A DNA stretch of 54,877 nucleotides from Pararhodobacter sp. (lineage in GTDB: Bacteria; Pseudomonadota; Alphaproteobacteria; Rhodobacterales; Rhodobacteraceae), in NCBI GenBank assembly GCA_020832665.1, contig JAFIEG010000024.1, positions 1-54,877 on the forward strand, written 5' to 3'. The position numbers and the translations under genes were made by a program. Below, in pieces: positions 43,764 to 54,877 of this stretch (the stretch's first letter is position 1; each line of letters begins with the position of its first letter). The notes beneath the pieces were generated by a model. It was not told the DNA's origin. It did no database searches and worked only from the letters and a program-made list of their open reading frames with translations.

Positions 43764-44693
43764 GTGAAACCGACCTTGCGCCAGCTTGAATGCTTCCGGG
43801 CGGTAACCGAGATGGGTAATTTCTCGCGCGCCGCCGCGCAGCTGGGCATGTCGCAGCCCGCCTTGAGCCAGGCGGTGCGCGACCTTGAAGAAGGCTTGGG
43901 CACACGGCTTTTCGACCGCACCACCCGCCGCGTGGAGCTGACCGAGGCCGGGCGCGTGTTTCGCGCCACCGCCCTGACCGGGCTCAGCGAGATCGGCCGC
44001 GCGGTGGCGCTGGTGCAGGATCTGGCCAGCCTGCGCCGGGGGCTGGTGCGTATCGTGGCGCCGCCGCTTCTGGCGGCCACCATGTTGCCGCGGGCGGTGC
44101 GGGCGATAGCGGTCCAGCATCCGGGGCTGGAGATCAGGCTCGAGGATCTGGGCACGGACATGATTGTCGAGCAGTTGCGCAGCGGCCGCGCCGAGATCGG
44201 TATTGGCACCTTCCCGCCCGATACCGAGGGGCTGGCGATTTCGCCTATGCTGCGCGACCGGCTGGCGGTGTTCGCGCGGCCCGATCACCCGCTGGCCGGG
44301 CGCGCTGCGTTGCGCTGGGTGGAACTGGCCGATCAGAAAGTGGTGGCGCTGACCCGCGAAAGCGGCCTGCGCCTGCTGACCGAGATGGGGTTCGAGGCCG
44401 CCCGGCTGGGCTTTCGCCCGGCCCATGAGGTGCACCAGATTTACACCGCGCTTGCGTTGGTGGACGAGCTGGGCGCGCTGGCGGTGCTGCCGCTCTATGC
44501 CGCCGGGGCCTTTCATGGCCGCGATTTCAGGGTTTTGCCCCTGCAAGAGCCGGTCATCGGGCGCGAGATATCGCTGGCATGGCGGCGCGACATGGCGCCA
44601 TCGCCGGCCACCCAGGCCGTAAGCCAGATCCTTCTGCGCTCGATCCGGCGCTTCCTGCCGGATCTGCCCGAGATCGAATCGCTTTTTTCATAA
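43764..44693 (+). CDS. LysR-family transcriptional regulator
   Basis: A 309-residue regulator. The winged helix lies at residues 1-60 (LRQLECFRAVTEMGNFSRAAAQLGMSQPALSQAVRDLEE), followed by a periplasmic-binding-like effector domain. The ligand is unknown but probably linked to the downstream catabolic genes. It reads in the same direction as them with 68 bases between. Confidence 0.92.
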   Translation: MKPTLRQLECFRAVTEMGNFSRAAAQLGMSQPALSQAVRDLEEGLGTRLFDRTTRRVELTEAGRVFRATALTGLSEIGRAVALVQDLASLRRGLVRIVAPPLLAATMLPRAVRAIAVQHPGLEIRLEDLGTDMIVEQLRSGRAEIGIGTFPPDTEGLAISPMLRDRLAVFARPDHPLAGRAALRWVELADQKVVALTRESGLRLLTEMGFEAARLGFRPAHEVHQIYTALALVDELGALAVLPLYAAGAFHGRDFRVLPLQEPVIGREISLAWRRDMAPSPATQAVSQILLRSIRRFLPDLPEIESLFS

Positions 44694-44761
44694 GTTCAGC
44701 CAATCAATTTATCCGGTTCTGGTGGCTTTACAGATCAAACGTGCTCTGGCTTGCTTGATAG

Positions 44762-46939
44762 ATGAAACTCCTGGGGCATGACGGCGTGGCGAAGGAACAG
44801 GGCGATATCGGCTTCATCGGGCGCGCCATGCATCGGCGCGAGGATGACGCGCTTCTGCGCGGGCAGGGCCGGTTTGTCGATGATCTGGCCCCGCAAGGCG
44901 CGCTGCACATGGCGGTGTTTCGCGCGCCGGTGGCCTCGGCGCGCATCGAGATGCTCGATGTCGACGATGCTCGCGCGGCGCCGGGGGTGGCGGCCGTCTT
45001 CACCGCCGATGATCTGGGCGTGATGCCGGCGGCCGGCGTCAACAGGCTGATCGAGGGCGCGCCGCTCAAACCGATGGTGGTGCTGGCGCAGGGGCGGGTG
45101 GCCGCCGCAGGCCAGCCAGTGGCGGTGGTGGTGGCCGAAAGCCGCGCCGCGGCCGAGGAAGCAGCCGAGCAGATCATGCTCGATACCGAACCCGACGTAC
45201 CCGCCGACAGCTGCCACCGCGTGGCCGAGTGGCAGACCGGCCAGGCAGGCGAGGAAGCCACGCAGGTGGCGGTAACACTTTCCCATCCGCGCGTCGCCCC
45301 CTTCGCGATGGAGCCGCGCGCGGCACTGGCCGTGCCCGAGGGCGAGGCGCTCACAGTCTGGCTTTCCACGCAGACCCCGCACCGCGCGCGCGACGATCTG
45401 CAGCGCATGCTGGGGCTGGCCGCTGGCGCGCTCAGGGTGGTGGCGCCGGATGTGGGCGGGGCGTTCGGCGGCAAGGCCTCGATCTACCCCGAGGATGTGC
45501 TGTGCGCCTTTGCCGCCCTGCGGCTGGGCCGCGCCGTTTCATGGCGGGCAACGCGGGGCGAGGATTTCCTCGCCGCCACGCATGGGCGCGGCGCGCGCAG
45601 CGATGCCGAGCTGGCGCTCGATGGCGAGGGGCGCATCACCCGGCTGACGGCGCGGCACGAATTCGCCATGGGCTACTGGATGCCCTATTCGGCCTATGCG
45701 CCGGTATCGAATGCCGGGCGCATCCTGCCCGGCCCCTATATCGCGGCATCGGTGGATATCGCCGTCGATGTGCGGTTGAGCGATGCGCCGGCGATCAACA
45801 TCTATCGCGGCGCCGGCCGGCCCGAGGCGGCAATGCTGATCGAGCGCGCGATGGACAAGGCGGCGCGCGCGGCGGGGCTCGACCCGTTCGAGATCAGGCG
45901 GCGCAACATCATCCCGGCTTCGGCTTTTCCCTATCATTCGCCCACCGGCGAGACCTTCGATTCGGGCGATTACGCCGAGCTTCTAGACAAGCTGGAAGCG
46001 GCCAGCGATTACGCCGCGCTGCGCCAGCGACAGGCCGAGCGCCGCGCGGCGGGCGAAGTGGTCGGGCTGGGGCTGGCGCTTTACATCGAACCCTGTGGGC
46101 GCGGCTGGGAAACGGCGAAGCTGACCCTTCTGCCCGATGGCCGGTTTCGCGCCCTCACCGGCGCCTCGGCGCAGGGGCAGGGGCGCGAGACCGCCTTTGC
46201 GCAGCTTCTGGCCGACGAACTGGGCACCGAGCCCGCGCAGATCGAGGTGGGCGAGGGCGACAGCGCGGCGCTGGACAACGGCATCGGCGCACTGGCCAGC
46301 CGCTCCACCGCCATCGGCGCCAGCGCCATGCTGCGCGCTGCGCGCGCGCTGCGCGAAAGGGTGCAGGGGCTTATGGGCGGCAACGCCTTTCCGGGCTGGC
46401 AGGCCGCCGCCAAGAGCCTTGCCGCGCAGCTTCCGCTGACGGTCGAGGAAACCTACACCGCCCAGGCCGAGGCCTGGGCCTCGGGCGCGGTGCTGGCCGA
46501 GATGGCGATCGACCGCGACACCGGCGCGGCGCGCGTCGAGGGCATCACCTGGGTCGATGATGCCGGCCGCGTGCTCAACCCGATGTTGGTCGAGGGCCAG
46601 CTCATGGGAGGCATGGCGCAGGGGCTGGGCGCGGCGCTGATGGAGCGGCTGGTGATCGATGGCGACGGCCAGCTTCTGACCGGCAGCCTGATGGATTACG
46701 CCGTGCCGCGCGCCGCCGACATGCCCGCGCGGCTGCGGCTGGAAAAGATTGCCACCGATACCGACGCCAACGAATTCGGCGCCAAGGGCGTGGGCGAGGC
46801 CGGATGCATCGGCATCCCTGCCGCAATTCTGAACGCCGCGCAGGATGCGCTTTCGCCTTTCACCGAGCGCGACCTTGCCCTGCCGCTGACATCCGAGCGG
46901 CTCTGGCGCGCGATGAACGATCTGGAGGATACGCCATGA
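44762..46939 (+). CDS. xanthine-dehydrogenase-type molybdopterin-binding subunit, solitary
   Basis: A 725-residue large subunit of the molybdenum hydroxylase family. GRAMHRREDDALLRGQGRFVDD at the start, VGGAFGGKASIYPED (Mo site Q-loop region), INIYRGAGRPEAAMLIERAMD, and KGVGEAGCIG with the catalytic Glu near residue 679 are visible. The usual FAD and 2Fe-2S subunits are not in the window. It should hydroxylate a heterocycle or aldehyde; the substrate is unknown. Its stop overlaps the next start (ATGA). Confidence 0.88.
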   Translation: MKLLGHDGVAKEQGDIGFIGRAMHRREDDALLRGQGRFVDDLAPQGALHMAVFRAPVASARIEMLDVDDARAAPGVAAVFTADDLGVMPAAGVNRLIEGAPLKPMVVLAQGRVAAAGQPVAVVVAESRAAAEEAAEQIMLDTEPDVPADSCHRVAEWQTGQAGEEATQVAVTLSHPRVAPFAMEPRAALAVPEGEALTVWLSTQTPHRARDDLQRMLGLAAGALRVVAPDVGGAFGGKASIYPEDVLCAFAALRLGRAVSWRATRGEDFLAATHGRGARSDAELALDGEGRITRLTARHEFAMGYWMPYSAYAPVSNAGRILPGPYIAASVDIAVDVRLSDAPAINIYRGAGRPEAAMLIERAMDKAARAAGLDPFEIRRRNIIPASAFPYHSPTGETFDSGDYAELLDKLEAASDYAALRQRQAERRAAGEVVGLGLALYIEPCGRGWETAKLTLLPDGRFRALTGASAQGQGRETAFAQLLADELGTEPAQIEVGEGDSAALDNGIGALASRSTAIGASAMLRAARALRERVQGLMGGNAFPGWQAAAKSLAAQLPLTVEETYTAQAEAWASGAVLAEMAIDRDTGAARVEGITWVDDAGRVLNPMLVEGQLMGGMAQGLGAALMERLVIDGDGQLLTGSLMDYAVPRAADMPARLRLEKIATDTDANEFGAKGVGEAGCIGIPAAILNAAQDALSPFTERDLALPLTSERLWRAMNDLEDTP

Positions 46940-54329: not shown

Positions 54330-54347
54330 TGTCGTCATCTCCCTGAA

Positions 54348-54877
54348 TTATTCCATGAGTTTCGGAATGGCCGGCACGTTCTGTTCGGGGCCCATGGCGG
54401 TATAGCCGCCGTCCACCCGGATATCGGTACCGGTAATGAAACTGGCCTCATCCGAGCACAGAAACAGCACTGCGCTCGCCACCTCCTCGGGGTTGCCGGT
54501 ACGACCCAGAAGATGGAAAGGCGCGGCCACGCTGTCGGTTTTCTCGCGGTTGCCCTCGGTCAGCTGGTCCATGATGTTGGACCATGTCCAGCCGGGGCTG
54601 ACGGCGTTCACACGTATCCCCTCGGGCGCGAGGTCCATCGCCTGAGCGCGGGTCAGTTGCAGGATTGCGGCCTTGGAGACAGGGTACAGCCAGCGCCCGG
54701 TTTGCGCCACGCGGCTGGAAATGGAGCCGAAATTGACGATCGCGCCCTTGTTGGCGGCCAGTTCCGGGCGCGCTTCCTGCATCAGGATGGCCGAACCGAC
54801 GACATTCACATCCAGCGCTTCCAGCCATTCCGCGCGCGTCGAATCGGCGCCGTTGTCGAGATAGGAACAGGCGACAT
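54348..54877 (-). CDS. short-chain dehydrogenase/reductase, 5' end beyond window
   Basis: The final 176 codons of an SDR. The frame stays open to the window end; the missing start lies to the right. SISSRVAQTGRWLYPVSKAA has the catalytic Ser and Tyr-x3-Lys, NGAD...LDVNVVGSAIL precedes it, and FLCSDEASFITGTDIRVDGGYTAM is the usual end. SDRs of this kind oxidise cis-dihydrodiols or reduce carbonyls. It is 18 bases ahead of the monooxygenase, forming SDR-StyA-reductase. Confidence 0.9.
   Translation of the reverse strand, partial: VACSYLDNGADSTRAEWLEALDVNVVGSAILMQEARPELAANKGAIVNFGSISSRVAQTGRWLYPVSKAAILQLTRAQAMDLAPEGIRVNAVSPGWTWSNIMDQLTEGNREKTDSVAAPFHLLGRTGNPEEVASAVLFLCSDEASFITGTDIRVDGGYTAMGPEQNVPAIPKLME

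Follow-up and report, generated by a model that had tools for sequence, protein, structure and literature searches.

How might a bacterium degrade 3-hydroxyanthranilate without ACMSD, the decarboxylase of the textbook route? The question is raised by the right end of a Pararhodobacter sp. contig (JAFIEG010000024.1; C75) of 54,877 nucleotides, which is the window that we analyzed and the whole of one contig in a 4.19-Mb draft genome. Here, the plus strand carries genes for a LysR-family regulator (positions 43,764–44,693; gene call and family models), an orphan CoxL-type molybdopterin-binding, aldehyde oxidase-like subunit (Mo large subunit, hereafter CoxL; 44,762–46,939; Pfam Ald_Xan_dh_C, MoCoBD_1, and MoCoBD_2), a class I lyase of a distinct DapA subfamily (46,936–47,913; Pfam DHDPS), 3-hydroxyanthranilate 3,4-dioxygenase (HAO; 48,047–48,595), an aspartate dehydrogenase-family protein (AspDH; 48,598–49,410; Pfam Asp_DH_C), and a TRAP importer. 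We conclude that this set probably imports 3-hydroxyanthranilate and breaks it down through a lower pathway free of ACMSD, in which the DapA-type enzyme would stand in for ACMSD. What we observe directly is the gene set, its conservation, and two near-exclusions, one between DapA and ACMSD and the other between aldehyde dehydrogenase (ALDH) and CoxL.

The plus-strand genes represent a gene set that is conserved among alphaproteobacteria. We searched genome contigs with an alignment of the DapA-family protein, kept and read the best 80 of 395 relatives with flanks of up to 10 kb, and scored gene presence by tblastn with the window proteins. HAO is present in 79 of these 80 loci, AspDH in 61, and CoxL in 22, and some LysR match is found in 69, in most of which LysR and DapA are on opposite strands. 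The means of import differs, as our locus has TRAP genes on the plus strand (DctP at about 49,590–50,576 and DctM at 51,227–52,486, both by family models, and the small permease DctQ at 50,676–51,230, by Pfam), whereas most of the 80 relatives have a LIV-type ABC system. A TRAP match occurs in 2/80 loci, the two same-genus ones, and other queries found the ABC permease LivH in 70/80 and an alpha/beta hydrolase (hyd6) in 60/80. This hydrolase is not in the window, and its best match in our genome is 35% identical and lies on another contig. In a less biased, class-wide sample of 289 alphaproteobacterial genomes (cut-offs of E 1e-30 for HAO and E 1e-60 for the DapA profile), HAO was found in 26 genomes, DapA in 18, and both in 17, where chance alone would give about 1.6. 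The two genes lie within 6 kb on one contig in 12 of these 17 genomes.

The set is also carried on plasmids. A Phaeobacter inhibens plasmid typed as conjugative (NZ_CP081234; L150 and L153) has the order HAO-ALDH-kynU-TRAP-LysR-AspDH-DapA, and 47 plasmid records hold a DapA of 60–80% identity; a scan of viral contigs with DapA found no relative. A locus of Ensifer adhaerens W2-B9 (L152, NZ_CP083351) reads DapA-HAO-AspDH-SDR-EamA, and neither ALDH nor CoxL is matched within 9 kb of it. Another locus (L103), filed under a cyanobacterial metagenome bin (Kaiparowitsia), has a DapA that is 77% identical to that of the window with HAO adjoining, and this assignment is probably a binning error. The location on plasmids bears on the suggestion that the set makes quinolinate and NAD and degrades no aromatic compound, as both HAO and AspDH feed quinolinate. 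The HAO product is described as cyclizing to quinolinate in the available part of PMC10143591, and annotators have attached an NAD-biosynthesis term to AspDH. Against this, the LysR, import, lyase, and aldehyde-oxidation genes suit catabolism, and the set is found on plasmids and is patchy within the genus (a close HAO in 4 of 18 genomes, our own included, some of the drafts being incomplete). We consider a role in quinolinate synthesis very improbable.

Next, we consider ACMSD. Our genome gave no ACMSD match at E 1e-30 with one ACMSD query, the window gave none with three queries, and no AMSDH-type semialdehyde dehydrogenase above 40% identity was found in the window. In the class-wide sample, strong ACMSD matches (at least 64% identity) occur in five genomes (G210, G157, G036, G219, and, as a fragment, G261). 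All five lack DapA, and all but G261 have HAO. A further 33 genomes have ACMSD matches of only 28–38% identity, which we take as putative other amidohydrolases. The 26 HAO genomes thus divide into 17 with DapA and no strong ACMSD, 4 with strong ACMSD and no DapA, none with both, and 5 with neither (G115, G139, G230, G243, and G245). The initial annotation had supposed that the lower route differs from the kynurenine/nba pathway, and both the lack of an ACMSD match in our genome to the query used and the mutual exclusion of DapA and strong ACMSD in the sampled HAO genomes support this.

By comparison, ACMSD lies directly beside HAO in four loci that lack DapA (L135, L136, L027, and L161). Of these, L135 is the canonical nba/onb route, because ACMSD (E 3e-130 to the solved enzyme), AMSDH (E 1e-217 to the solved enzyme), a Rid-family protein, and a protein of the decarboxylase/hydratase family are all present. 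The last of these is nearest to 2-oxo-3-hexenedioate decarboxylase and falls below the cut-off of that model, and L135 also has a kynureninase match. The onb scheme in the accessible text of PMC5817917 gives the gene content expected as in L135.

Next, we asked what the HAO acts on. The window protein passes the cut-offs of both NCBIfam models that it matches, PRK13264 and TIGR03037 (273 vs. 220 bits and 261 vs. 146 bits), and its best PDB matches are HAOs. Seven active-site residues (Arg47, Asp49, His51, Glu57, His95, Arg99, and Glu110), which we take, with this numbering, to be the metal- and substrate-binding ones, are kept in 79/79 copies from the 80 best DapA loci and in 11/11 from a further 11 more distant loci, one row being truncated at one site. 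From these family assignments, HAO is predicted to act on 3-hydroxyanthranilate.

The company that the set keeps in relatives points to the same substrate, as some loci have a kynureninase or a quinolone dioxygenase. Kynureninase, the product of which is 3-hydroxyanthranilate or anthranilate, is present in 4/80 DapA loci (L090, L091, L096, and L105; the L091 copy passes the family cut-off). A homologue of 1H-3-hydroxy-4-oxoquinoline 2,4-dioxygenase is found in 11/80 (the L052 copy at E 7e-80 to 3ibt), and an FAD monooxygenase is found in 14/80 (the L052 copy being closest to MHPCO). The two occur together in 10/80 loci (L052, at 4534–6523, L048, L053, L055, L058, L061, L069, L070, L071, and L073), often with a formamidase-like hydrolase. 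This pair is a candidate upper pathway for xanthurenate or a hydroxyquinolone, and an 8-hydroxyquinolone such as xanthurenate could yield 3-hydroxyanthranilate in this way. Elsewhere in our own genome, on other contigs, lie two kynureninase matches that pass the cut-off, together with matches to tryptophan dioxygenase (TDO). The initial annotation's view of an N-aromatic catabolic locus with an HAO is supported.

It is rather unlikely that the set instead degrades some other ortho-aminophenol carboxylate. Such a substrate would fit the alpha/beta hydrolase carried by 60 of the 80 relatives, the varying transporter classes, and the occurrence of CoxL-DapA away from HAO; however, the window HAO is a match to the solved bacterial enzyme (E 6e-72) and keeps the active-site residues, and kynureninase accompanies the set both in the four loci named above and on the Phaeobacter plasmid.

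Next, we consider the DapA-family protein. Its AlphaFold model (pLDDT 89.8) has the fold of dihydrodipicolinate synthase and N-acetylneuraminate lyase (NAL), with 20–27% identity to the 50 best PDB matches, and the protein falls below every NCBIfam cut-off that it matches (91 vs. 206 bits for the dapA model). Lys177, which aligns with the Schiff-base lysine of NAL, is kept in 80/80 and 11/11 loci, as is a Trp150 that replaces the Tyr of the NAL motif and is followed by His152. Because the search pattern itself contained the GKQ motif, the presence of this motif is independent evidence only in the 11 distant loci. The family includes hydratase-aldolases and dehydratases, such as trans-o-hydroxybenzylidenepyruvate hydratase-aldolase, KdgD, and pyrroline-4-hydroxy-2-carboxylate deaminase.

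HAO would open the ring of 3-hydroxyanthranilate to give 2-amino-3-carboxymuconate 6-semialdehyde (ACMS), and a dedicated DapA-family Schiff-base enzyme would then replace ACMSD. Because ACMS is a 2-enamino acid, a lysine could exchange for its nitrogen, and on mechanistic grounds alone DapA may bind the 2-imino acid via Lys177. On the same grounds, water addition at C4, together with retro-aldol scission of the C3–C4 bond, would yield iminosuccinate or oxaloacetate together with malondialdehyde or, if C6 were first oxidized to the 6-acid, malonate semialdehyde as the C3 product. The aldehyde would be oxidized by ALDH or, in our locus, by the CoxL-type Mo protein. AspDH would turn iminosuccinate into aspartate, and a retro-aldol reaction that releases iminosuccinate would give AspDH a natural substrate. 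The window AspDH passes the cut-off of NF009828 (237 vs. 177 bits), does not reach other AspDH models, and matches PDB 2dc1 and 1j5p; its role is the weakest part of the proposal. We put forward only tentatively the full scheme, in which a second lower pathway for 3-hydroxyanthranilate is common in alphaproteobacteria, a Trp-type DapA hydratase-aldolase cleaves ACMS or its 6-acid into C4 and C3 products, and an orphan Mo subunit, acting without the partner subunits usual for its family, can replace ALDH.

The main rival to the retro-aldol reading is plain Schiff-base decarboxylation, where DapA would be an ACMS decarboxylase/deaminase not homologous to ACMSD and 2-hydroxymuconate semialdehyde, ALDH, and 4-oxalocrotonate would follow as usual. 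In its favor, a Schiff base readily loses its beta-carboxyl group, and DapA and strong ACMSD matches are mutually exclusive among the sampled HAO genomes. However, the partner ALDH resembles the succinate-semialdehyde (SSADH) and ketoglutarate-semialdehyde (KGSADH) dehydrogenases rather than AMSDH, and decarboxylation would leave no clear role for AspDH. Furthermore, the Rid-family protein of L135 has a single, partial 41% match (in L103) near the DapA loci searched at E 1e-8, and its decarboxylase/hydratase-family protein has only 33–36% matches there (in L062, L080, and L084; E 1e-8). We give plain decarboxylation a modest chance.

To oxidize the aldehyde, the relatives appear to use one of two enzymes. 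Across the 91 DapA loci (the 80 best plus the 11 more distant ones; identity thresholds, 50% to ALDH and 40% to CoxL), 57 carry ALDH without CoxL, 27 carry CoxL without ALDH, 1 carries the two together, and 6 carry neither (Fisher p 2.9e-16), so that exactly one of the two is present in 84/91. In the only locus with both (L072), the ALDH is 52% identical and lies some 8 kb away, and those with neither comprise cut or short contigs (L041 and L066), a locus with a 38% CoxL (L132), and three with full flanks (L099, L101, and L102). CoxL lies directly upstream of DapA in 27/27 and ALDH in 32/57. A quickly built tree of 92 DapA rows, in which L072 was labeled CoxL and the six unlabeled rows were left uncounted, shows 8 changes of the ALDH/CoxL label by parsimony, at least 3 of them forced by starred branches. 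Because ALDH and CoxL alternate in this way, the simplest reading is that they do the same job, presumably aldehyde oxidation. The semialdehyde dehydrogenase that the initial annotation had reported as missing is not simply absent, as the Mo subunit occupies the slot that ALDH has in many relatives; of its Mo-hydroxylase, the large subunit is present, and no Fe-S or FAD subunit lies beside it.

We also tried other identities for these two proteins. The relatives' ALDH was rejected as AMSDH because its identity to the enzymes of L135 and L136 does not exceed 35%, and the Mo subunit was rejected as a CO or xanthine dehydrogenase, as it falls below those model cut-offs. Its best model is glyceraldehyde dehydrogenase alpha (510 vs. 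a cut-off of 790 bits). A second CoxL-type large subunit, 41% identical, is found on contig C48 of our genome (L144:1344–3530), where no FAD or Fe-S match was found, and on contig C87 (L148, 40,001–49,319) a tryptophan 2,3-dioxygenase match adjoins Mo Fe-S and large-subunit matches near the contig end.

Several observations weigh against an ACMSD-free pathway built on this set. The 80 DapA loci are the most similar ones and not a random sample. HAO and DapA are on different contigs in 5 of the 17 genomes that have both (G042, G220, G314, G100, and G134), and in the 4 of these 5 that we read, DapA is paired with CoxL without HAO; G259 likewise has CoxL-DapA and no HAO match at E 1e-30. CoxL-DapA is thus the tightest of the pairs, and it may also serve another substrate. 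We came across no assay of an enzyme from this DapA subfamily. AspDH is absent from 19/80 loci, including 10 of the 62 with full flanks, and a 41% AspDH homologue lies near the canonical locus L135. Weak ACMSD-like matches (28–36%), which we take as putative other amidohydrolases, are present in 3 of the 17 genomes with HAO and DapA (G042, G095, and G322) and in all 5 with neither DapA nor strong ACMSD, and in G042 (contamination 7%) an AMSDH homologue (81%) is no more than 10 kb away from HAO, an arrangement like that of the canonical route. Lastly, no CoxM or CoxS lies beside the Mo subunit and no spare one was found in our genome, where PF00941 is found only on C42 and C149 and PF01799 only on C149, C87, and C42, each of which carries its own Mo large subunit; thus, the activity of the window CoxL is uncertain.

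Next, we considered whether the genes at the extreme right end belong to the same pathway. On the minus strand are a flavin reductase (FR; 52,598–53,092; Pfam, and gene order in relatives), a StyA/IifC-type flavin oxygenase (53,097–54,338; Pfam Smoa_sbd E 7e-47; 219 bits vs. a StyA cut-off of 550), and a short-chain dehydrogenase/reductase (SDR) in the IifB position (54,348–54,875; gene call and family models), the 5′ end of which is truncated by the contig end; the corresponding open reading frame (ORF) has 258 aa in L120, L121, L124, and L125. The genes named by the initial annotation are all at about the places that it gave, but the two groups, which it had called divergent, run towards each other and converge tail to tail, with LysR to TRAP on the plus strand and FR-StyA-SDR on the minus strand.

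The initial annotation had joined both groups in a single indole/anthranilate pathway, in which StyA-SDR-FR would make anthranilate, to be hydroxylated and then opened by HAO. The groups are adjacent on our contig, TDO and kynureninase matches are present in our genome, and the gene order SDR-StyA-FR is that of iifBCD, a route to anthranilate according to PMC4577076 and PMC6221969. In the iif module as described there, IifC with IifD forms the dihydrodiol, IifB converts it to 3-hydroxyindolin-2-one, and IifA leads to anthranilate. With anthranilate as the expected product, a further hydroxylase would be needed before HAO, and no anthranilate 3-hydroxylase was recognized among the ORFs in the right part of the window, although no dedicated search was made.

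The relatives separate the two groups. StyA is found in 0/80 DapA loci. At E 1e-40, 11 of 60 relatives carry it, and of these 11, 10 belong to the 18 same-genus genomes (our own included). Three same-genus drafts (G003, G006, and G014; 80, 85, and 92% complete) have the HAO set with a close HAO and no StyA match at this cut-off, and nine other same-genus genomes have StyA without a close HAO. StyA is present without any HAO match in G001, G002, G005, G007 (a StyA fragment at a contig end), G008, G009, G015, and G016, and with a 62% or 58% HAO on separate contigs in G004 and G036. Only our own genome has close copies of both, as neighbors. Among same-genus loci (L021, L022, and L023, which are the same contigs as L029, L030, and L031 and were counted once), L021 reads CoxL-DapA-HAO-AspDH-DctPQM, L022 is the same with LysR added, neither has the StyA group, and the short contig L023 reads LysR-CoxL-DapA-HAO. 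The initial annotation had held that a shared pathway would be contradicted if the two groups never co-occurred; this nearly describes the relatives, the exception being our own genome, where they adjoin.

The SDR-StyA-FR order is kept in 9/9 full-length relatives (L109–L117). In L120, an AraC-type regulator gene lies next to the SDR gene and divergent from the module, and ORFs that resemble this regulator by eye are at the same place in L121, L122, L124, and L125; the plus-strand set, in contrast, goes with LysR. FR-StyA-SDR is an iif-like module of the indole type in its own right, which also occurs elsewhere in the genus, and we judge a joint pathway improbable. A cyclase-family gene lies near the module in L122–L125 (33–48% tblastn matches; Pfam PF04199 in L125), which we assume from its family may encode an isatin hydrolase. 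At the other side of the locus, alpha and beta subunits of a nitrile hydratase and a CoA-transferase lie just left of LysR (window 39,849–43,433), and L028 also carries a CoA-transferase (86%), beginning about 6 kb before LysR.

If the ACMSD-free pathway is correct, it would be an unrecognized alternative to the textbook branch of tryptophan/kynurenine and nitroaromatic catabolism, and one found more often than ACMSD in our alphaproteobacterial sample (17 vs. 4 of the 26 HAO genomes). A conserved "dihydrodipicolinate synthase family protein" and an orphan Mo subunit would both gain a function, and the disposal of ACMS, which otherwise cyclizes to quinolinate, would become testable in marine bacteria and in soil or root-associated ones. 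We recognized no description of the HAO-DapA set or its chemistry in the open-access literature searched, a coverage that mostly leaves out subscription papers, so novelty is unproven. In the accessible part of the review PMC4539516, anthranilate degradation via 3-hydroxyanthranilate is presented solely as a meta-cleavage route.

Each part of the locus has a known counterpart. The minus-strand group resembles the iif/ind indole cluster (iifABCDE, IifR), as the SDR, StyA, and flavin reductase genes keep the B-C-D order and an AraC-type regulator gene adjoins the module in L120; the slot of iifA (DLH family) would lie beyond our contig end, and the relatives read have no linkage to the HAO set. 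The window Mo protein shares the large-subunit domains of CoxLMS-type Mo hydroxylases but is without an M or S subunit beside it. With dihydrodipicolinate synthase and NAL, the window DapA shares the Schiff-base lysine and not the catalytic Tyr or the family cut-offs. It has the class I Lys fold of the DapA-family hydratase-aldolases and dehydratases, and the proposed hydration and retro-aldol reaction, or deamination, would likewise act on a 2-oxo or 2-imino acid, but Trp150 takes the place of the usual Tyr and the active-site motifs are its own. Finally, the set has the same HAO family and would have the same first ring opening as the nba/onb and kynurenine-type route (HAO-ACMSD-AMSDH-deaminase), and some of its relatives also carry kynureninase; in contrast to that route, no ACMSD match was found in our genome, and in place of the usual enzymes stand a lyase of the DapA family, either a Mo protein or a different type of ALDH, and AspDH.

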